This document shows, in pieces, positions 2,241-62,699 of a stretch of DNA of 64,000 nt (position 1 is its first letter; every line of letters starts with the position of its first letter). The stretch is taken from NCBI RefSeq assembly GCF_964204645.1, contig NC_134026.1, positions 26,678,650 through 26,742,649 on the forward strand, written 5' to 3'. Both the position numbers and the translations under genes were made by a program. This DNA comes from Tubulanus polymorphus (lineage: Eukaryota; Nemertea; Palaeonemertea; Tubulaniformes; Tubulanidae). The notes below the pieces were generated by a model that worked only from the letters and a program-made list of their open reading frames with translations, was not told the origin of the DNA and searched no databases.

Positions 2241-5200
2241 CTACAAAAACACAGAATATGATGAAACACAATGTCAATCACAAAAAATTTACAATTACTG
2301 CTTACAAATGAAAAGCTTTTATGCTTATCTCATAAAAAGAGAATTTCATCTTTATAATTACATGTCATTTATCTAAATTATTGCAACAAGCAGTACAATA
2401 ATCAAGATATAACTTCGACCTATCTAAGAAAAATTTGTAAAATAAATCATTAGACTTTCAACACTTCTGCAACAGTATATAATATATACAAAATATTTTT
2501 GTATTATGATGTATATAATATAAATTCCTGGTAAGTCTTAAAATTTCTGACTAAAACAACAACTGCCAATCATAGTAGGCATTAAAACTATTTTGGAAAC
2601 AAGGAATAGGTGGCTGCACCAGATCCCAGTGTGATAAATCTTCAGTTTCCTTTATCGTTGCCATGGAACAATAAGGAATGTGCATTAAGAGTTTTTGAAA
2701 ATGACTGCTTGGTCGCGGAGGTTTGTTGAGTATTTGTCTAGAGCAGACGTCTAATGTTGCTGCGTGTCCGACCAGTAACACATTTCCACCTACCATAAAA
2801 ACATGCATCATTTATAGATTCTCACGTTAATCATTTAAATTTACTTGTTCAGCCATTGACTAAGTAGATACCAGAGAAATAACTTAATATAAAGAAAGGA
2901 AACTAAAACTGATAGGAAATGAAAGATCTTTGGAGTGAATACTCACTATTTTTATGATATTTTTCCAAAATGAGTTCAGTGGTTAGATGACAGCGGTTGT
3001 AGTACATTTCAATATTTTCATAAATGTCGAATTGGGAATCATCCCACACCGGCTCGTACGAACGATTCACCTTGAAACCGTTATCCATTAATTCATCAAG
3101 TGTGAGAAACTCTGGTATTGTTGGTTTATACCAGCCTAACCATTCAAACAAACCGGGCTCAACTCTAAGCGGGAGATCAGTTGCGCCATAACCTGAAATG
3201 TAGAGTCAATTAAACTTCATGAGCAACAACTATTAACCCAGGGACAATAAAATTCACTGGGTACTGCTCTTGACTAATAACTGCCAGTCTCAGTTACTCA
3301 CCTTCTAGAAATTTAGCAGATGTTTCAATGCAGCGTAATGAAGGAGAAGTGTAAATACAGTCGATCTTGATACCGATGTGTTTCATGTATTCACCTGTAT
3401 TCAATGCCTGGAATTTACCGAGTTCAGTTAATGGGCAATCTCGACTGAAATTAGCAGCTCCTCCGTGACGTTTCGGAAGTGTCTTAGGAAGATTTAAGTT
3501 TGTTCGTACGTATTTCCCTGGTAAACAATAATAACCAGATAGATGAATTACACAATACTGGTTCAAAATTATGAAATGTTAAATAGCGTGTATCAAGATT
3601 TACCATTTCGATCGAAACTCCAGTTCATCCAGTTACTGAACGTAAAATCAACTCTTTCACCATGACGCATTATATACACTGTTCTCGGTTTCCTTTTGCC
3701 TTTATCCACCTATACTCATAAATAGGATACAAATCAATGTTTAAAACTTCAATATTAATCAACACATGGCTGAATAATCTACCTGAGAATATATAGGAGT
3801 ATTATCACAGTTTGAAGCACTTGATCCGCCTATTAAAGGAATTGATCTGAAAAAAAGTGAATAATAGATTTGTGAAAATAGAAAAAGAATTACCAGGTAT
3901 CAGTTGGAAATGAAAATAAGCCACTCACTTATGTAGAATCCAGGTGTCAGTTTCTGGAGCTCTTACTGTGTAAGGAAGTGGGAATTTTGCAGTGACACCA
4001 GTTCGCCAAGACGTGCCTATACGCCAGTCACCCATCGGAGTCGCATCTTCTGATACAAATATATAGTCATTTGGTTCTAAATCTAATTCTCCGGGGCATC
4101 TTGAAGTGTGCTGTGTTGTAACTTTGTACGTCTGAAATGACAGAATCAACAAAACTTAAGTACATTGAGACAGCTACTAGTACTGAAGCTACATTTAACA
4201 AAAAGCGCAAATGCCTTACATTACAATTTTTACTTCTAGCATCCCGGGAATATAGTCTGAGATCCCATCTGACATCCCCTGCAAGGTCAATTTGTTTGGC
4301 CATAGTTGTTAATTTTGTTACATCAGCTTTCTGGTCCGACAAAAACTTGTATGCTAATGACAAATGATGCTCTTTCTTGTACACTGGCACAGCTATTCCT
4401 GCCATGAGAAAGTAGAAAATTAGATCTAATTCAAAATTGCTAGCGGCAAAAGAAAATGTAATTACAAGAAGAAACTGACCATGTTTTCTGGCTTGTTCTG
4501 AAAACGTCATAATAAGCTCTTTCGCAAAAGGCACAGTTTCCTCATTCATAAATAAACCAATGAAATTGTCCGAATTGAAGAAGTCCAATTTCAAAACTTT
4601 CGGGATGTTTTTCACTGTTTTGCAAGTATCTTCCATTGCTGAACACAAAAGTTCTATTGCATCATCTTTTACCTAAGAATGCAAACCATGTTCTTGTATC
4701 ATACATCTATAATAACATTTTGAAGATAAAATCGATTATGAATGAAAAAATTAATTGCCTCAAAAAAGGTGGTCATAGTCATATGAGGAAAGTAATTTCG
4801 AGCTTGATTCCAACCGCATTCTTTAAAAGAATTCAACCAAAACTGATCCAATTGATGCTGTAATTCTCCAACCGGACAAAGATATAATATATACTCTCTG
4901 CAAGATTCTAAATCCAGAGTCGGGTCATTCACATGTGAAAGTAGCCTAAAAATCAAGTTATTCAGTGTTGTTAGTTGAATCTCTCGCTGAAAAACCTGTA
5001 ATATCGTAGACTTTGATTTGCAGAGAAAAACTTTATTCATATTGTCACCTCTTCACAGTTGCATGTGAAGCTAAATTAGTTACCAAGTCATCTAACCTAA
5101 CCAGTCTAAAGTAGTTCAACCTCATTTACACTTACCAGTCTGTTGCTACTTGAACTCCTTTATCGGCTGTGGAGGTTATAGCTTTCTGACTGAAAAAGAA

Positions 5201-10000: not shown

Positions 10001-13000
10001 TAAATTCATTGCTTTCTTAGTTACGTATGAAATCATAAAACTGATCTTTTCAAACATGAAATTGTTATTGACATTTTCAGGAGTTATTCTCAAGGAGGCA
10101 TAACATCGGCTTCTGGTTTGATACAGAGTATTCTTAAAGAAGGAGAGATGACAAAATTTTCAGTCGCTGATATAAGACTTATCTGCAGTTTGCTCTGTTC
10201 TGCTGAGTATTGCTTGGAAACAACTCAACAATTAGAGGGTAAACTGAAAGAAAAGGTTGATAGCGAATTGAGTGAACAAATCAATCTGAATCAAGAACAG
10301 GACATGTTTCATTCGTAAGTTCAATTCACCAATTATTACATAGCGGTATTTATACATCATTTGAGACATCTTCCAGTATGCATTAGATTTCATCCTCATA
10401 ATATTTTACAGAGTTATTTCAAGTTGTATACAATTATTGGTACAAGACCTGGAAGGGGCTTGTGAACCTGCATTAAATGCTATGAGTAAAGTAAGTTGAA
10501 GCAATTTATTTTTCAAATTAATTTCTGTATTTTTGTGACAATTACCAGCTCCTATTACTGGCTTTTATTACCAGTATATTATGTGTGTTTATAATCTATT
10601 TCAGCTACCATGGCAAAGTATTGAGAGTGTAGGTGATCAAAGTAATTATGTGACAGCCATTATAAATCATCTCAAACAAGACCTTCCTGTTGTCAGAGAC
10701 AATTTGGCTTCATCTCGTAAATATTTCACCCAGTTTTGCCTCAAGTTTGCGAAGTAAGTTATGCTCTCTCCTTCCATATTTGATGTTTCTCATCATATCT
10801 GGTAACATATTTACATTAGATATGTCCATCCTTTATTTCAGTTCATTCATTCCGAAATTCATCATAAATCTGCACAAGTGTAAACAACTGAGTACGGTAG
10901 GAGCTGAACAGGTACGTACATCAAATACAACCAAATGTTGCATTTGCTGATTGATAGATAATAGGCCATAATTCATGCACCATGTTGTAGGATTTCTGAT
11001 TAAAAATACATGTACTGATAGCTCTGATTCAATGTGACACTTGTAAGATTGCACTACCATAGCTTTATTTTTTGTCGTCTTTATTTCAGTTGCTGTTAGA
11101 TACACATTCGCTGAAGACTGTACTGTTAGATCTTCCATCCCTTGGTTCTCAAGTAGGCCGTAAGGCACCTGCAAGGTATGTAGAAAATTAATTTACTCAA
11201 TATACTATTTATCAAATGCTCCTAGTCAGTCAATATTTAGAATGAATGCACAATGTAAATTTATAGTCATTTGACAATACATCAAGCATTATATATATGC
11301 ATATCAACTTTAATTTTTTATGCTGTTGGATAAAATAACTTGAATTGTAACAGGTGAGTTTGTGTTCAGAAGGTGAATATGCAAACTTTCACCACAGTTT
11401 ATTACTGTAGTATGCTAATACTGTTTGTCATCGATTGCGACATACTCTTGAACCATTCATTTTTATTTACTTGAAGAAACTATTTACTCGTTATATGAAT
11501 ATCGCTTGGGCTTACTGAATGCGGTCTGATTGAATTTCCTCGAGCCCCAGACATGGATTAAATTCAGCAATGGATGCATTTTTATCTTTCCGTTTGTTCG
11601 TGAACGTGATCGCGTTTCTATTCGGAGTTGGTGGCAATATGTTTTTATTTGTTTTGATCGCGACACGTGTCAGACTGCACGGTTATCACTATAGATTTAT
11701 AGCAAGTTCATCTTTATCTCACATTCTCGCCGTGGGTTTAAACTGTTTGGATACATTCTTGGCTTTGCGTTCGCACTCTCTGGATGAAACGATTCACTTT
11801 TGTCAGGCGATTATCGTCATCTCATTGACATCATCGGGAGTTTCAGTGATAAGTTTCGCATTATTGGGACTACACAAGTATATAACGATATGTAAACCGG
11901 AGAAGTATAATCAAATCTTCATTTCAAGTAAAGTGAATGCGATGTTAATTCTTTCATGGGTGATTCCTGTGCTTGTATACGTTTCAGCTGAGATTGCCAC
12001 CAACTGGAATTGTTTAATAACAACTGAAGGCTCGAATGGTTCGACAATTTGTGTTTATAATATTACGACTGATAGTAATCGTAGGATATGCGGCATCATT
12101 ATGATTTGCCTGTCCATATTTGTGCCTTGCACTATATTGGGAGCTTGTTATATATTCATTATCAATATGGTTAGACATCAGATGTTGTCGACTACTACGA
12201 GTAAAGTGTTAAACCCAAACTCTTTAGATCATGAGAGCTGGATTCACTGGATCAAAAGAGTACAAACTAGTCGTAGAACTCGTCCACTGTTTATACTATT
12301 TACTATCTATATGTCATACTTTATTTCAACGTTTCCTTTCGGAGTGGCGATGTTAGTGAGTAGCGTGTTTCCGGTATCCAATCTGGTTATTCGTTTGACA
12401 TCTTGGATTGCGGGAGTTTATTTTTGTTTTAACTGGCTGATGTACTGTCTGGTTGACCGAAATCTTCAAACGGAATGCCGAAATCTATTCGTCAAGAAAC
12501 CAGTCCAATCTGATTTAGTTATGATCGAAAGATCTTGTACAGATTCATGATATATTTCTTTGTATGATAGAATTCCTTGCTAATAGAATGATTTGACGTT
12601 GATGACATTTATGTTTAACATCTGTGCTTAAAGTGTGATAACGCGGGACGTCAAAAGAACCTGACTGTCTTCATATCGGTGGTGCTTTGTTTTTTTTTTT
12701 CAGTAAGCGATAATTCGATCAATTGTAGATCTCTGAGGCTTCCAGCAGATGTTCGTTAACATGTTTTTATTACCAGTCGTAAACAATAAGATAAGAGAAT
12801 GACAGGTGTCTCATATTCCATTTACCTCGGCACCGTAGCTTTGAATGAATAGAAAAATCAACCAGGTTTTCAACTCTAGTTTGTATTTTAGTGACAAAAA
12901 AAGTATTTATTACAGTCAAGAATGTTCCATGAAAATGATATCAACATCTACCTAATTCAACCATCAAAATTGAATTCATCATTGTTACAATACAAAGGAG

Positions 13001-16000
13001 GTAATTTCTCAAATAGAAAACATTTTAAATGGCATTTCATGTAAAACCTTTTGATTTAGACATATATGTAGAAGTTAGTTGTACCCATGTTCTCGTAATA
13101 AAAATGTTCTAGATCTTGGACTGGCTATTGAACTGTATGTTTGCCAGTGTCCTCTGCGACAGCACAATAAGTGTACAAGAATCTTCCTGAAACGTTGTCC
13201 AACGAAAGCAAAAACAAATAGATTCACAAAACAATGAAACGTCGTCAGTGAGTCACCCGCTAATTGCATGATGTAAGCATATCTCTTCTCTTCTAAGAAT
13301 TTTTCAGCCGATCCCTTGTGAACGTGTAATATTAGGCGATAAACTCGAATCGGCGTTTCGCAAATGATGAAAATCACGACTATGGTTATCAGCGTCGCGG
13401 TGACGTTTGAAGTCGCGCGACCGGAATAGTTTTCATTGTTTTGCTTTTGTTTACGGCGAGAGCTTTGTATTTTTACCATCAGAGTCGAGTTGAAAATAAT
13501 CATAGCTAAAACGGGCACGAAATACCCGACCGAATCGAGCGTATAAATCAGCGCATAGTTTTTCTTACAAAAACGTGTCAAATCGTTGTAAGTTAACACC
13601 TTTCCGGTGCAATGTTGTTTCATTTGAACAGTGTTGATGACAAAAAATCTCGGAATGTTTATTCCGATCGATATGACGATGATTATCACCATAACAATAC
13701 GTGCATACCTGATTTTACCCCACTTGTGAACTTTTTCCGGGTGACACACGCGTATGTATCTATCAATCGTTATGGCCGTTATGACGAGCATTCCAATCGT
13801 ACTAGCCGTCATCCGTAGCGGCCAAATATAAGGAATCATGTATACAGAACCTCGATAATACTGCTCTAATAATCCGGTGTACGGGTAAAACGAGGAAAAT
13901 GTGTGATGGATCATCATCAACAACAGCGACAGAATGTCTGACACGGCCAACGCTTTTAAAAAGAATGTTATCGTCGTTCGGTGGTCTTTCGATAAAACGA
14001 TTATCGCGATGAAGTTAAACAGTATTCCGAAAACGCAAAGAATACCGACGAGAATTACGTACACGTAAAATCTCATATCGGCGAACATCATTGTACTGGT
14101 CACGTTCATTGTGCAGTTCGTATGTTCCGATACCGGATCATAACGAGAATCTGTTTGAGATTCACCGTCCAGTATCGGTACTGGATCCCAACTAGCTCGT
14201 CCACTTGAAGCTTTCATAGCTGGCGTATCCATTTCATAAACATTAGGTCCCCATTCCGGGAATTCTGACCGCAGTGATAATTCCCACATGTGATATGAAT
14301 CGTGTATTTCTTTCGCCATTTTTTGCATCATGCGCGCTATCGGTCTTATCAACTCGATCCTTCTATCGTCAGTGATATTAATCATGTGTTCCATCTTTGT
14401 TGGCTTCCATGTCTTTTCGATAATGGAAATCGTTCAGCTTTGCCCGCTGTTGATAACGGATTGTTCTTCGTCTGGTGTGAATTTTGAATCATAGAAGCCC
14501 TGGAAGTACGAAAGAAAGTATGTGATATTACCTGTATTCAGATAACGTATTTATAATGGAAGCAGCAACCCATTTACTAATATATATATATATGGTGATG
14601 CTTGGCTTTGGGTGTGATTTATTGGTTTTACAGGTTTTGTTTGTCATTTTATCAATTTTGTATGGCTTTAAGGCATATTTTCCACGGAAATATTCGCAGT
14701 TGACATAAATATCCATCAATCTGTATATTCTGCTGCAGGCAAAAATATTTATTTAATTTGATGTCACTATTTTATGGACACAGGTGAAATTGACATTTAC
14801 TGACATTAACACATTGATTGGCTATATACAAGTAGAAAGTAAGACATTAGCAATCAGAGTAATGACCACACTAGCTAATACCGCAAACTTCATCCATTTC
14901 TAAATGAAAGAATACTCACACACTACCAAAAAAGAGATGAAAAAGTTTGGAATGAATAAGAAAAAAGATCAGATACCAAAATCCACAAAATACCTACATG
15001 CAAACGTGATATCATAGAAACATTATTCTCTTTACACCAGAAAGTTCAACCACTGAATCGCCACAAGAATATATTACCAGGAGACAGTATTCATGCATGT
15101 TGAAAAAAATTAAACGAATAAAGCAAGAATTCATTAGCATAATTACTTATTTATTTATATAGAGTTTTTCTTTTCATTTTCCCTCAGCGAAAATGTATTA
15201 GATTTTGGACTGGGAACTGCGTTATACGACTGCCAGGGTCCTTTACGGCACAGCAGCATGTGGACGAGTATCCTTCGAAATCGCTGTCCGACGAACGTGA
15301 AAACGAACAGATTCACAAAGCAGTCAAACGTAGTAAGCGTGTCTCCTAGTAACTGTATGTAGTACGTGGTTTTCTCGTCTTGTGAGAAGCGCTGGGCAGT
15401 TTCATGATGGGTAAAACTTTTCAAGAAGACAAGAAGTCTGTAGATGCGTATGGGAGTTTCACAAACGATGAATATGATTACGATCGTAATCAAAGTTGCG
15501 GTCACGTTCAGCGCCACGCGGCCAGAAAATGAGCCGGTACTTGTTTTTTGTTGTAAGGGTTGTTTTTGCCTGGACCGATGTACGGTTATGAGTAGAATCG
15601 AATTGAATACGATCAATGCGAAGAAAGGTATGAAATATCCGATGGAATCTAAAGTATAAATCAACGGAAAATATTCTCTGTAGAACTGAGTCAGTTCGTT
15701 ATAGACCATGATTCTATTCGTTTCGGGCACATAACAGGAAGAAGTCTTTATTACAAAGAACCGCGGTATGTTAATACTGGCTGATAAGATGACGATTACG
15801 ACCATGGTTATATAGGCATTGCGAAGTTTAGCCCATTTAAGAACTTTATCCGAGTGACACACACGAATATACCGGTCGATTGTGATCGCTGTGATGACTA
15901 ACATACACATCGTATTGACCATCATCCTTAGAGGCCAAATGTATGGTATCATGTACACAGAATCGCGGTAATAATTTTCCAGTAATCCCGTGTACGGATA

Positions 16001-19000
16001 AATCGACGAAAAAGTGTGGTGTATTAACATCATCAGCAAAGATAGAATATCTGACAGGGCTAACGCTTTCAGGAAGAAATTGATGGTCGATTGGTTGTCT
16101 TTGTTCAGCACGATAATTGAGATCGTATTGAAAATAATTCCGAGAAAACACATGATCCCGATCACGACGACGTAGACATAGAATCTGATATCAGCGAATA
16201 GGAACGATACAGCAGTCGTTGTGACGTTAATTGACGGCGATAAAGTTGTAGTATTTTCAGTTATAGCTGGATCTGGTTTAGTCGTGACAGTCACGCGTTC
16301 AGGTGGATGATAACTAGTCATAGTTGGTAACCTGCTATATTTGTATTCACGGGGAAAATGTGGCATCTCATGAAGGATCGGCACCTCCCACAGATGATAC
16401 TGTTGATGAATAATTTCTACTAATTTTGATGTAGATTTGGCTATATCGATTACAGACAGGTTCATTTTGCTTCCCCGTTTCGATGCCTACAAGTTAAAAG
16501 AAAATTAACCAGATTATAACTCATCTTTGTGAATCAAATGTATTGAAATGGCGATTTGAAAAAACTTACCTTGACTTGAGAATTAGCATTAGAAAACAGT
16601 TAAGTAGTAGCAGTAAGTAGCTCGAGAGTAGATTGCTTTGTAATCCGTGTAGATTCAGGTAAATTTTAGCACGAACACAACATCGGTTACTGACAGTTTG
16701 CCGCAGTTATAAACATAACATCAGAACATAAAAATGAATAGTAGTTTAGACTCTACCTGAATGAATTCTTCTGTTCGTATTTAGATTCTGATAACGTTAT
16801 CTTCAATCGCCGAACGCTATCGACTTACCGACCAGTCATAATCCTACAAGTAATTTCACACTCTGTTATGATGATGTTTAAACTTTCAATGTTGCGCGCA
16901 CGTAATGTAGCGGCATTGTTTAAAAGAAATGTCATCATCGGTCATCAATTGAACAATCCCGCCCGACGCTATATTCCTGTCTAACTTCACCGCAGTCGTG
17001 TTTATTCTCTGACAAATACAGTTCTATTTGTTCTGTTCTGTAATGTTTAGATTATGAATTTCTGTCATGCGTTCTCATTATGATTGGCTGCAGTAGGTTA
17101 TGATGGCGGTCAATACTGAATTGTATGATTTCAGTTTGCTCAATTTTATCATTCTATCACTGCAGATATATATACAGAAGACAATCAATTGTAACTGACA
17201 ATTGATGCTCCGTTGCTTAATATTTGATAGACATATTGCGATTATAACATCCATCCGTTCTGGTTTATAAGTCCTCTCTTGAGTATTCCTAAACATTTCA
17301 TCCATCTGTTGCCTGTCATTTCTATTTTTCATTAACCATCCATGTTAAGCTCATGAAGTGATATCATTACTAGAATGAATGCATATCCGTATTGTTCTGA
17401 ATGTATGAACAAGTATTTGAAAAATATCGTAAATTAGTTTGCCGACATCAATAAATAGATATTCGTCGTGCAATCGTTAGGTCAGACTAATATTATCGGG
17501 GTGTGGCTTGGCTCTATGAGGAGTGTTATACAGGCAGGAATAGAGTTGGTTGTATTTTAACAGCCTTCGCATTTTTGTGAGATACTATTAATCTGTTTAA
17601 AGCTGACGCTAAAATTTATCATTTCTAACTGTAAACAACCTCGTGTCACTGGTTTATCATGAGATAATTGAACTATTTGAAATATCAGGGTGATATATAT
17701 GTAGTTGAAATAGCGAATAACTGAATTTAGTTGGATCTGTATTTGTCAGTAGGCTGGTATTGTGATAAGTGCAGAGTTATATATTCCCAACATCGAATGA
17801 GTGAATATAAAGTCTTGATAGCCATGTGTTGCTATACTGTTATTAATCTAATTAGTGGACTGAAGTGATCTAGAAATGACTCCAGATGAATTACCATACT
17901 GATACTGCTCAGTATGAAAACAGAAATGATGTTATTTCACATGCGATGGAAACACTGAAAACCTGTAATTAGCAACAAGCGAATCTAGAAAAAATGTGCA
18001 TTAAACGTGTTTTTGTAAAGAGGTATTTGAGTAATATTTCATCGAAACATGGAATTTCTAGTGTTTTATGAGAGACGTATAGAAACTTACATTTATGGTG
18101 ATCCCCTCTTAGTGATACATGTGTGCAGGAAAATAAAGAGGTTTTTTATTGCGAAGTCTTTTGTTACCCAGCTGGTACTAGTAATAATGAAGCGTTACAG
18201 TCCCTATGCTGGTATAAAACTCATGTCAGATTGTAGCTGCTATGGGTTTTCAGTCATTTAATGATTGTTTATTGTTTGTCACTCATATTGTACTTTCCAA
18301 TGAGACACCAACAGAATTTGGCAATCAGAAAACTTGTGTCGACAAATTTAGTTGTTTACTGTAATTTCTGATTCCCAGTCACTGTTTATCATGGCATCCC
18401 CAGTCTCTTATTAATTGGATTGGTTTTTTGGCTCGAGGGAATTACTGCACATCTTTTTTTCAAAGAGTTGTCACGTAACAGCGGCAAGTGAATCAACTAC
18501 TTTTACCAGTACCTCGGCACTATCTTCTTGCTTCGCCGAGTGAGTGATACATGATTTCATCGTATAGTATCCGAAGCTATCATTACATTTTGATGAATGA
18601 GAAAATTAGAACTTGTATGGTAGAATGTTATCTATCATATTTCAGTTGGTCATGCAAGTTTCTCCTTTTCTTTTTATTTATTTACTCGTACACGTGTAAT
18701 GTGCTTTTCTTTGAACTAACTGGTACAAATAGAAAATGTCCCGACAGATCGAATTTAATCGGTTGATTAGATTTTGAAATTGCTTCACTACGTCGGGAGA
18801 GATTAATTACAAAGCGTTGAACACTTGAAATCAATTCGCGGAATTTGCATAAAACCCATAAACGGGAGTAATTCTTTCGTCTGTGGTTTGTAGAACATCG
18901 AGATAAATTGAATTAAACATAATCCGATGTATGCACCGCGCTAGTATTAGCGCCGCTATGGCTAATGTAGAGTGTCTCCTCACTAATAAGGTTAAAACCT

Positions 19001-30730: not shown

Positions 30731-32110
30731 ATGGTTTGGCGTAGGATAGCGTCAAAATTAGCGGCTACTGCCGGTTTAGTTTCTGGTGGAACTGCCATCT
30801 GGTGGTGTTCAGATAAAACTAAACAGCAAAACACTGTTTACGCTTCTTGGACATCAGGATTTGTACCAAGCGTCAAGTGGGACTTTAATTGGGATAGGTA
30901 AGTATGAAATGCTCAATGCTTCCTTTTATATTTGCCTATTAGGTTCTGGCAAGCCCTCGGCCTCTCTCAACAACATGTGAATACCACCATGAATTGTTTC
31001 ATTTGCAGACGGAATCCTGAAGACTTGGTGAAACCAGTAGAGGATAAGAATGACGAGGCTCAGATAGCGGAGCGAAAAAAGAAAATCAAGGAGCTAAAAC
31101 CTACTGCTGTGCGTCATTTGATATTGATAAGACATGGCCAGTATCACATGAATGGTTCAGACAAAGGAACATTGACATCGCTAGGTAGGCATTATACCGT
31201 ACTGCATGTAGATATATAATAATTGAAATCAAAAGACAAGTTTGTAACAGATGTTGATTATTACAGGTCAAGAACAAGCAGCTTTCACAGGGAAAAGATT
31301 GCAGGAACTTGGTTTTGATTATGATTTCATGGTATATTCTACTATGCCTCGAGCCACGGAAACCGCAGAAATCATTCATAAATTTCTACCTAATGTTGAA
31401 ATGACATCTTGTAATTTCCTACGAGAAGGATCCCCAATCCCGCCAGAACCACCAATAGGAAATTGGAAGCCAGAAGCACAAGTATGTTAAGTTAACCATA
31501 TCTATTATAATCAATCATCTGTATTTCTAAATCCTTGTTTTATTGATGCTAATTTTTAGGAATTCTTCGAGGATGGAGCTCGAATTGAAGCTGCATTTAG
31601 GAAATACATACATCGTGCTGATCCTAGTCAAACTAAAGACAGTTATGAAATTTATACTTGTCATGGGAATGTCATCAGATATTTTGTTTGTAGGTTAGTA
31701 TATATAGTTTATTCGTTGTTCTATAGTGTGTCCTATTTTCTCGTAGTTTTATGAAGATGGTGCTCGAATTGAGGCTGCATATAGGAAATATATTCATAGA
31801 GCTGATGCTAGTCAATCCAAAGATAGTTATGAAGTCTATGTATTTCATGCAAATGTCATCAGATATTTTGTGTGTAGGTAAGGTAATTAGCATTAATGTT
31901 GGTGTCTAAAACGATTTTGAAAGCATTCTGTTTATTTGTGCATGATTTATGTTTTTCAGAGCTCTACAATTTCCACCTGAAGCTTGGTTACGTCTTTCAC
32001 TACACAACGGTAGTATAACATGGTTGACTGTTAGACCTAATGGACGTGTTACATTACGTGAACTTGGTGATTGTGGACATATACCTGCAAATAAACTATC
32101 AACTTCATAA
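30731..32110 (+). CDS. PGAM5: PGAM5, mitochondrial protein phosphatase
   Basis: PGAM5 is a membrane-anchored mitochondrial Ser/Thr/His phosphatase acting in mitophagy, fission and cell-death signalling. Exons: 30731-30897, 31009-31184, 31267-31481, then 31560-31693 or 31747-31877, then 31960-32110, giving 280 or 279 aa. A hydrophobic N-terminal segment (about 10-26) provides the anchor. The WDxNWD multimerisation motif is WDFNWD at 50-55. The catalytic core has LIRHGQY (His98) and the second histidine in exon 4 (about His221). The C-terminal [21 protein letters not shown] and RPNGRV are family signatures. Splice phases agree throughout. The fourth exon exists in two versions (see separate entries). 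Confidence 0.95.
31560..31693 (+). CDS. PGAM5: PGAM5 exon 4a (mutually exclusive copy)
   Basis: 134 nt, phase 0 in and phase 2 out, flanked by TTTTTAG and GTTAGT. It encodes [23 protein letters not shown] and [13 protein letters not shown]. The histidine in CHGNV is the second catalytic histidine of the fold. Closest to the usual family sequence at CH, but with Gly where the family usually has Ala after His. Confidence 0.9.
31747..31877 (+). CDS. PGAM5: PGAM5 exon 4b (mutually exclusive copy)
   Basis: 131 nt, one codon shorter than 4a, same phases, flanked by CTCGTAG and GTAAGG. It encodes [22 protein letters not shown] and [13 protein letters not shown]. About 80 percent of residues match 4a and the catalytic histidine is kept. 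The intron between the copies is 53 nt (31694-31746), and joining both copies would shift the frame, so only one can be used per functional mRNA. Confidence 0.88.
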
Positions 32111-32222
32111 CATTCATTGGTGATTTTATTCGGTGTACCATTTAACAGTGACGTGTATCAGATCTGTTCATTTTGTACTTAATTTGATCATGTAGAAATT
32201 AAAACATTTATGTTGTGATATG

Positions 32223-59936: not shown

Positions 59937-62699
59937 TTACCATGAAGGTGCGGTGTTTGCTAATCGACGCATTCGCCTAAAAATATAAAATAGTTCGTAT
60001 TCAGAATTCTGAAAGGTATCAACATTCGACATGTCAGTACACAGTATACATAGAGGATGTACACACCTGGTGTTTCTGTCTTGATCTCTGATCTTTTTCT
60101 CCATCTCTGCATCTGTCAATGACTCGAGGAATGGGCACCATTGATCTGATTCATTCTGATTTCTAAATGCCAGTTCTATCTGTGGTAATGGCGCTTCACT
60201 GAAACATATTTACATTATTGTAATTAAATCAAATGTACTGTAGTTTTACCATTAATTCTACAATCATTCACTACTACTCTACCTAAATGCGTATGTTCTT
60301 TGGTGCCAGCTCAACTGTCCACGAATGCTGTATGCTATTGATGTTACAAATTCACCTCCAAGACCTAAATGGTTAATTACAATAAACCCTCGAGTTACTT
60401 ATTTCAAATATACAGAGTTAAAAGAATTTCTTAGTTCTTAATTACCTAATTCAGCACAGAGTTTAGTTGCAAATTCTTCGGGACTATTTTCTGGTTCAGA
60501 CATATCCCATTCAAATTGATCAACTAACGATATATTTCCCACATGGATGTTCAACTGAAAATATAGGTAACATACATCGAAAATGAATCTTCTAAAAAAG
60601 TGATATATGTGATACCATGGATTAGAGTCCATGGTGATACAAATGAAATTCGTCATTACTTTTAAGATAACCCTTTGATCCAACTGTTCTTCTATAATGT
60701 TATCTGCTGGAAATGCTTCAATCTGTTGTCTGATTGCCTGAGCTATGGCTGCCACAAAATTCATCGGATTTAAATCCAAATCATCGCATAGAATCTCGGC
60801 AAATTGTTCTGGAGTAATCAATGTTTCTAAAAATACAATCAATTTACATAAAATCAGGAACATCTTATACAATTAAATAAAACATTTCGAAATAAAATGC
60901 TTGTTGGTATTGATATATTATTACCATTTTTATTCCATGTGAAACAATCTCTGAGCTTTTGACCTTCAATTTCCATATCGAGTCTAATTGGTACAAGAAC
61001 CTCAGCCTGACGGGCATTTTCATGCATTGCAGCTGGATCCAAGTCATCAAAACTGTAAGAAACATAATATGACAACATAATGTCATTCTTCAACCAAAGT
61101 CAAGGTTTAGACCACTATGATACTTACCACAATGGGAATGTTCTCATCTTATTTTTGGACATTCGATTACGATTAATTGGCGTTGAACAAGGTACAGCAT
61201 CTAAATGATGTGAACTACTGGGGACAGTGGGCACCCAGTTATTACCACGTTTGTTTCTAGATTTACTATCGCTGAAATAAAGAAGCACAATTATCTCTCA
61301 TTATCATAGATTCATCTCTCTATAGAGAATGAGCATAATTGACAAATATACCTAGCAGGCGTCTGATCAGCTCCTACTGATACTGCCTTGTATTTATCAT
61401 CCCTTCCTTCGAATATCTCATCCACTTCAGACGCTTTTAGTAAAGTGATATTTGTAGCTAGGGTATGCTGACCAAAACCAGCTGCAAAATTAAAAGATAA
61501 GATTTACATATATTAATCTAATTGAAACAACTGAATGGGGTACAAAATACTGAATAACACAAGAAATGGAACAACAGAGGCTGAAAAAAAAACAGCTTAT
61601 CATGCTAGCTAATTACAGTCATACAGAACTGCTGAAATATTATTGGCTGCCCATTCCCATCTAATAACTAACTGTTGAATATATGATATTAAGAATTAGC
61701 GAAGCAATTGAATGACTACATCTTCAAAGACAAATATTCTTATGTTAGTAAAATAACCATCACTTTAAGATGATGCAGTTACTCAATAAGTAATACTTCT
61801 CAAGAAAAGACACCGGCTAATTGTTAGAAAGCAAGAAATAATGTTTAGCATTTGATGAATAACACTTGAATTTTACTGCTCTGTATAAAGAGAATCGGAA
61901 TGATGCTGTAAAAAAACTGGGAAATCTAGATTATAATAGACTTCAAAACATTATTTTCGTATCAACTGACAAGCAAAGGGATTGGTTAAGATACTAAAAT
62001 GTCTAGAGTAAGTAATATTGTGTGATATGTTTGACTTTAAACCTACCTGCAGCTTTAACTGATACACCTGTAAAATGAACATATGTCAAACCACAGCCAA
62101 CCAAGCAATAATAAAACAAAGTATATAGAAGCAGAAAACAAAACTTCTAACCATGCAAGTATATTCACATGCTGTGTATGAATATATTAGAATTCATTGA
62201 GGGAAATTCTATGTCGATTTGTTTTTTAAGATATTCCTCACATGCTGAACACACACATCAATGTGACAAATATAGATAGTTAAATGTCTGTACCTAAAGC
62301 GGCTATTCTTTTTCTTTCCTCAACTGAAACCAATCTTCTCCACAATGAAGGATAACGTTTATACAATGAACCTCTGAACATTCGCAAATAATTTCCAACC
62401 TGTCGACGAAATAGAAGAACAAAGTTATGAATAAACAAATTCTAACAAAAAACTTATCTTCTTAGTCAGACTTAACTGTTTCAGTTAGTAAATAGTACGA
62501 CTGTTTTATGAAAACAAAGACCTTTTATCGCTGGTCTTATCGTGTTAACGAATGAACCATAAAACAACATATATCAAAATTATCTGTTAGTTACCTCAGA
62601 TCCGATGTAATAATAATCGCCATCATCTTCGATCTGGAAAGGGATAGGTTTTTCACCGAAAGTTCGAGTTCCACAAATTAACGAATTCGGCGTCGCCAT
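59937..62699 (-). CDS. SMARCB1: SMARCB1/SNF5 core subunit of SWI/SNF (BAF)
   Basis: SMARCB1 (SNF5, INI1, BAF47; fly Snr1) is a core subunit of SWI/SNF remodellers in the nucleus; its C-terminal helix contacts the nucleosome acidic patch. Exons: 62699-62595, 62399-62294, 62067-62047, 61481-61352, 61271-61128, 61052-60925, 60826-60660, 60554-60446, 60364-60283, 60198-60067, 59976-59937, giving 387 aa (human 385). The N-terminal DNA-binding domain includes [16 protein letters not shown] and [15 protein letters not shown]. Repeat 1 follows ([28 protein letters not shown]). Repeat 2 is [20 protein letters not shown] to [11 protein letters not shown]. The basic C-terminus is [11 protein letters not shown], then [13 protein letters not shown]. 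The third exon is a 21-nt microexon. Convergent with RIMBP. Confidence 0.97.
61482..62046. other. SMARCB1 intron 3
   Basis: AT-rich intron between the microexon and exon 4, with no other feature seen. Confidence 0.6.
62047..62067 (-). CDS. SMARCB1: SMARCB1 21-nt microexon (possible cassette)
   Basis: Acceptor TTTTACAG and donor GCAG|GTAGGT enclose 21 nt, phase 1 in and out, coding for six whole residues plus a split Gly/Ala (GVSVKAA). Skipping it leaves the frame intact (380 aa). It lies where human SMARCB1 also varies by a short in-frame segment between isoforms. Confidence 0.7.

Follow-up and report, generated by a model that had tools for sequence, protein, structure and literature searches.

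Two tandem exons, each carrying the second catalytic histidine, in the PGAM5 gene of Tubulanus polymorphus and the case for their mutually exclusive splicing

The PGAM5 gene of Tubulanus polymorphus raises the question of whether a single gene can offer two versions of the exon that carries a catalytic histidine and, if so, what would keep the two versions apart in the transcript. The complete gene lies at 30731–32110 on the + strand of the window, the whole stretch of 64,000 nucleotides that was analyzed. Between exons 3 and 5 it contains two exons, 4a and 4b, separated by a very short spacer, and its features are as follows.

30731–30897, + strand: exon 1 (coding part), with a hydrophobic N-terminus and the motif WDFNWD; assigned by translation, GT-AG junctions and alignment to human PGAM5 (5muf)
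31009–31184, + strand: exon 2, with the first catalytic histidine in LIRHGQYH, equivalent to human H105
31267–31481, + strand: exon 3, which ends just past the stretch matching the human β3-α3 catalytic loop (172–193)
31560–31693, + strand: exon 4a, 44 residues and a split codon for R, with the second catalytic histidine, equivalent to human H230
31694–31746, + strand: spacer between 4a and 4b, 53 nt, GT...AG
31747–31877, + strand: exon 4b, 43 residues and a split codon for R, with the second catalytic histidine
31960–32110, + strand: exon 5, with the stop codon; apparently terminal

With one copy of exon 4, the gene encodes a full-length protein of 280 residues (4a) or 279 residues (4b). The 4a isoform matches human PGAM5 (5muf) at 292.3 bits (E 2.8e-86) and the 4b isoform at 290.0 bits (E 1.3e-85), and the corresponding scores against the Pfam family His_Phos_1 are 73.0 and 73.9 bits. 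The WDxxWD motif, described as the multimerization motif of PGAM5 (PMC6355839), is present as WDFNWD in exon 1, where it aligns to human W58. Equivalents of the catalytic residues H105, R152 and H230 are found in RHG of exon 2, PRATE of exon 3, and CH or FH of exons 4a and 4b, respectively, and both catalytic histidines are kept in each predicted isoform. Exon 5 looks to be the last, because the normal stop codon lies in it and ATTAAA/AATAAA motifs come after it, at 32198 and 32223. When the 268 Mb genome was searched with the 4a isoform, the six matches among the best candidates were all exons of this gene and no second PGAM5 copy was found among those candidates; the gene appears to be single-copy in this genome. 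A search of genome contigs with 196 residues of the 4a isoform yielded no prokaryote relative of PGAM5, as none of its 10 pattern matches was confirmed. COX1 was likewise not found in the assembly. One more histidine phosphatase was identified in the window: a UBASH3-like gene, named by eye, at 2580–4700 on the − strand, ∼26 kb before PGAM5, with a histidine phosphatase domain.

The first-pass annotation had described the two exons as tandem, about 80 percent identical and of common phase, each with the second catalytic histidine, and their coordinates, phases and splice dinucleotides proved to be as claimed. Exon 4a is 134 nt and exon 4b 131 nt long, both 2 modulo 3; each begins in phase 0 and stops two bases into an Arg codon that the intron splits. 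The same residue is encoded at 35 of 43 aligned codons (81%; the first codon of 4a left out), and CH in 4a and FH in 4b align to human H230. In a direct-repeat search, the region appeared as two 150-nt copies that are 80% identical, with the likeness limited to the exons and their immediate edges; the introns are not similar. The 24 nucleotide differences are distributed 5/5/14 over codon positions 1, 2 and 3. By the NG86 method on 43 codons, dS is 1.00 and dN 0.10, a ratio of 0.10 that describes the divergence between the two copies and is not split by lineage. With 24 substitutions placed at random on 4a, none of 10,000 trials kept 35 residues, and at least 14 changes fell on third positions in 0.6% of trials. 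As many as 42% of the trials were free of stops, so that the open frame on its own carries little information. Identity to human PGAM5 is equal for the two exons (32/44 for 4a and 32/44 for 4b). Because dS has reached ∼1.0 while dN is ∼0.10, both copies have apparently been kept by selection for a long time, and the pair reads as an old duplication of which both copies have been retained.

The same figures bear on two other explanations of the pair. It is unlikely that one copy alone is used in practice, the other being a silent duplicate that has not yet decayed. By generic weights, the splice sites of 4a are indeed the weaker ones (donor 2.2 versus 5.6 in 4b; acceptor 0.7 versus 3.2), but with synonymous change near saturation and a dN/dS of 0.10, an unused copy this old would be expected to show decay, and here both frames are open, both pairs of splice sites are intact and identity to the human protein is equal. 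An assembly artefact, in which two haplotypes or a repeat were set in tandem, is hardly credible. Misjoined haplotypes can yield tandem copies, but the divergence (dS ∼1) is far beyond that of haplotypes, the likeness does not reach beyond the exon and its closest flanks, and the copies differ by an in-frame codon.

The length of the spacer between the copies was compared with other introns of the genome in two ways. Homology-anchored intron lengths were obtained from the gaps between neighboring exon matches of two profiles, Myosin_head (65 of 121 candidates scored, giving 91 rows) and Cpn60_TCP1 (all 58 candidates scored, giving 53 rows). Among 105 neighboring pairs closer than 2,500 nt, 66 were kept as usable gaps; the other 39, whose profile positions failed to meet within 12 residues, were left out, and their smallest gap was 300 nt. 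The sole estimate below 70 nt, a 69-nt gap on contig C31, was rejected as an intron, since it lies inside an uninterrupted frame of 575 residues. The single 575-residue frame in question (C31:7097–8704, L034; contig of 110,711 bases) encodes a divergent chaperonin-like (Cpn60_TCP1) protein, possibly a BBS/MKKS-type relative; an assignment to bacterial GroEL was rejected on reading, given the divergence of the frame. For the 65 remaining introns, the four shortest estimates of 71, 77, 77 and 80 nt became 80, 77, 77 and 80 nt when read at base level, each with GT...AG ends and a frame that continues across. The other lengths are estimates, and the resulting limit reflects a sample of moderate size from a single genome.

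Splice-site pairs between open coding stretches were also scanned de novo in 264 kb (the window and 20 stretches of 10 kb), using our own splice-site weights and the reversed sequence as a control. At a threshold of 12, the scan returned 52 candidate introns versus 10 in the reversed sequence; 28 versus 1 were 70–99 nt long, and 2 versus 1 were shorter than 70 nt. At a threshold of 8, the totals were 68 versus 20, with 3 versus 2 below 70 nt. Of the five introns that PGAM5 has when both copies are placed in line, just two pass the cut-offs, and because these reject sites such as the 4a donor (2.2), the scan misses introns with weak sites. Of the three candidates below 70 nt, the 58-nt one in a SMARCB1-like gene (window 60009–60066) was rejected, as its acceptor was wrong; a later AG makes the intron 90 nt long and gives back 10 residues that we take to be the C-terminus of SMARCB1. 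Two other short candidates, of 35 nt (L020) and 53 nt (L030), were not recognizable as genes on reading. No other intron verified in this genome is as short as the PGAM5 spacer, which is exceptional among those that could be verified. The earlier suggestion that 53 nt is probably too short to be spliced agrees well with these lengths, which peak at 70–99 nt, the shortest intron read being 77 nt. The spacer holds a sole branch-point-like site of the form YTNAY, whose A, at 31711, lies 17 nt away from the donor. A distance of <50 nt between donor and branch point is regarded as a potential source of steric interference (PMC5740500), and through its one putative branch-point-like site the spacer would fall well within that range.

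A second constraint lies in the reading frame. On translation, joining both copies breaks the frame, as the first-pass annotation had stated, with a stop at 32016–32018; skipping both copies also breaks it, with a stop at 31978–31980, and transcripts with both copies or neither lose the C-terminal part. Both of these stops fall in exon 5. Decay of messages with a stop in the last exon is weak, and since exon 5 is apparently the last, nonsense-mediated decay probably would not remove the doubly included or skipped forms; exclusion at the splicing step would therefore matter more. It might be supposed that the joined and skipped transcripts are themselves regulatory, frame-breaking forms made in addition to one normal form, and the two lengths of 2 modulo 3, by which double inclusion and double skipping both break the frame, would suit such a role. 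This is very improbable, as all other introns verified here exceed the spacer in length, stops in an apparently last exon are poorly placed for decay, and the retained likeness of both peptides would be left unexplained.

The spacer is also open in frame, up to a stop at 31752–31754 inside 4b, and read-through of the 4a donor would yield a short PGAM5. Positions 31694–31754 would add a hydrophobic tail of 19 residues, so that the protein would end in a sequence of 22 residues, the hydrophobic tail replacing the C-terminal part. The tail begins where human PGAM5-S diverges. An open frame of ∼18 codons is not rare, however, and read-through alone leaves a conserved exon 4b with splice sites of its own unexplained; although splicing of human PGAM5 yields an L and an S form (PMC11816071), there is very little chance that this is the correct account of the locus.

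The reading that we favor, and consider likely, is that an anciently duplicated pair of exons in an apparently single-copy PGAM5 gene is spliced in a mutually exclusive manner, with exclusion brought about by the too-short spacer and by the reading frame. The 53 nt would not allow the 4a donor and the 4b acceptor to be used together; transcripts would be 3-4a-5 or 3-4b-5, and the animal could probably make two forms of PGAM5. The two enzymes would likely differ in how they assemble into rings and in the surroundings of the second catalytic histidine. Mutual exclusion, as proposed in the first-pass annotation, is thus supported by in-phase homologues under constraint, a short spacer and a frame broken with both copies or with neither. 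At the level of transcripts, mutually exclusive exons are defined by reads that run from each copy to the outer exons and bridge the other copy, with no reads joining the copies unless these shift the frame (PMC5740500).

What might set the choice between the copies was considered from the splice sites and the introns. With its weaker sites, 4a is possibly rarely used, and the stronger sites of 4b suggest that 4b may be used by default, with 4a as the regulated form. An inverted repeat (31542–31554 with 31885–31897) is present around the pair. Shuffled sequences gave intron pairing as strong or stronger in 21/500 cases for introns 3+4, which is nominally 4% among three tests in one genome, and in 313/500 and 62/500 cases for introns 4+5 and 3+5, respectively. 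Among these three intron pairs, with 500 shuffles, no convincing RNA pairing of the docking/selector type was found that would explain exon choice. The donors of the cluster (gtatgt, gttagt and gtaagg), read by eye against the U12 donor consensus, include no U12-type donor, and assignment to the class based on U2/U12 incompatibility was rejected on that ground.

The consequences of the swap for the protein were assessed in human numbering, anchored at W58, with which H105, R152, Y198, H230 and F244 fall in place. The swapped exon corresponds to human positions ∼196–240; it begins shortly after the 172–193 catalytic loop and holds both the α3 contact position 198 and H230. Nine aligned positions differ between 4a and 4b: 196 (Glu/absent), 198 (Phe/Tyr), 208 (Phe/Tyr), 217 (Pro/Ala), 220 (Thr/Ser), 226 (Ile/Val), 228 (Thr/Val), 229 (Cys/Phe) and 231 (Gly/Ala). 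The one-residue deletion in 4b, at 196, is near the α3 interface and just before position 198. Human Tyr198 is a contact in PGAM5 ring assembly, and the mutation Y198E disrupts both the α3 dimer interface and the rings, with a ∼twofold loss of catalytic efficiency (PMC6355839). The position of human Tyr198 is a plausible second point of difference between the predicted isoforms, which may differ both at the active site and in the way they assemble.

Around the second histidine, the sequence is CHANVIRY in human PGAM5 and CHGNVIRY in 3eoz, the structure of a distant relative named putative phosphoglycerate mutase, presumably from Plasmodium. The first-pass annotation had drawn attention to the different residues flanking the histidine, Cys-His-Gly in 4a and Phe-His-Ala in 4b. 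The difference is real, but the CHGN of 4a is not in itself unusual, given CHGN in 3eoz and CHAN in the human protein; the odd residue among 4a, 4b, 3eoz and human PGAM5 is the Phe that precedes the histidine in 4b. A small residue is probably usual before the second catalytic histidine. On the sequences of the two exons, the isoforms may differ in activity, as the first-pass annotation had suggested. A bolder proposal, which we regard as doubtful, is that one exon choice sets both ring assembly (through α3, by 198 Phe/Tyr and the 4b deletion) and the setting of the second histidine, so that splicing would toggle this mitochondrial phosphatase between two forms, one more catalytic and the other more like a scaffold. 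Mitophagy, cell death and metabolism all involve PGAM5, whose activation is said to be governed by poorly understood mechanisms (PMC6355839). Isoforms that occur naturally as a conserved pair, and are alike except in the exon bearing the second histidine and the α3 contact, would allow a clean comparison.

Several known systems resemble this arrangement in part. Exons of α-tropomyosin and α-actinin are examples of the steric class of mutual exclusion. In PKM, the choice between exons 9 and 10 also bears on the assembly of enzyme subunits; unlike in PKM, the exon swapped in PGAM5 carries a catalytic histidine as well. In human PGAM5-L and PGAM5-S, it is the C-terminus that is replaced, whereas here two homologous exons would be swapped. 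Alternative splicing of PGAM5 as such would be common to the human forms (PMC11816071) and to the gene described here. With steric-class tandem exons, as characterized in PMC5740500, the pair shares homologous neighbors of the same phase, a very short distance between donor and branch point, and a frame that is broken by double inclusion. It differs in its host gene, PGAM5, and in that exclusivity is here deduced from anatomy, with the length limit taken from the genome's own introns. Exons 4a and 4b of OGDH are likewise property-changing mutually exclusive exons of a mitochondrial enzyme with a restricted intervening intron; in OGDH the reported cause lies in distant branch points close to the donor of that intron, whereas in PGAM5 the spacer itself is very short (PMC7969005).

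A mutually exclusive PGAM5 exon pair was not found in the open-access literature, judged partly by title or abstract (PGAM5 exons, isoforms and duplication; phosphoglycerate mutase), which accords with the earlier remark that no such pair is known from described PGAM5 genes. The term "PGAM" is absent from the main text of the survey of human mutually exclusive exons (PMC5740500), and "PGAM5" from the main text of another paper on mutually exclusive or tandem exons. The pair would add to mutually exclusive exons an enzyme in which the catalytic residue itself lies on the swapped exon.

A tandem arrangement of exons was also seen elsewhere in this genome. A muscle-type myosin heavy chain gene (L033, C4:4122400–4127100, − strand) contains four tandem copies of one exon (profile positions ∼119–152, EDQI...NNNSSRF) at a spacing of 553–588 nt, and these probably form another mutually exclusive cluster, with long spacers. 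Such a gene would suit a mollusc-like or other lophotrochozoan animal. Within the window, two adjoining single-exon rhodopsin-type receptors, alike by eye, occupy 13075–16486 on the − strand, and a third receptor of this type lies at 11534–12550 on the + strand. Beyond PGAM5, coiled-coil frames and SH3 pieces extend over 33130–57000 (ends approximate) on the + strand; by eye, they belong to a RIM-binding-protein-like gene, with one SH3 piece above the Pfam cut-off and one below.
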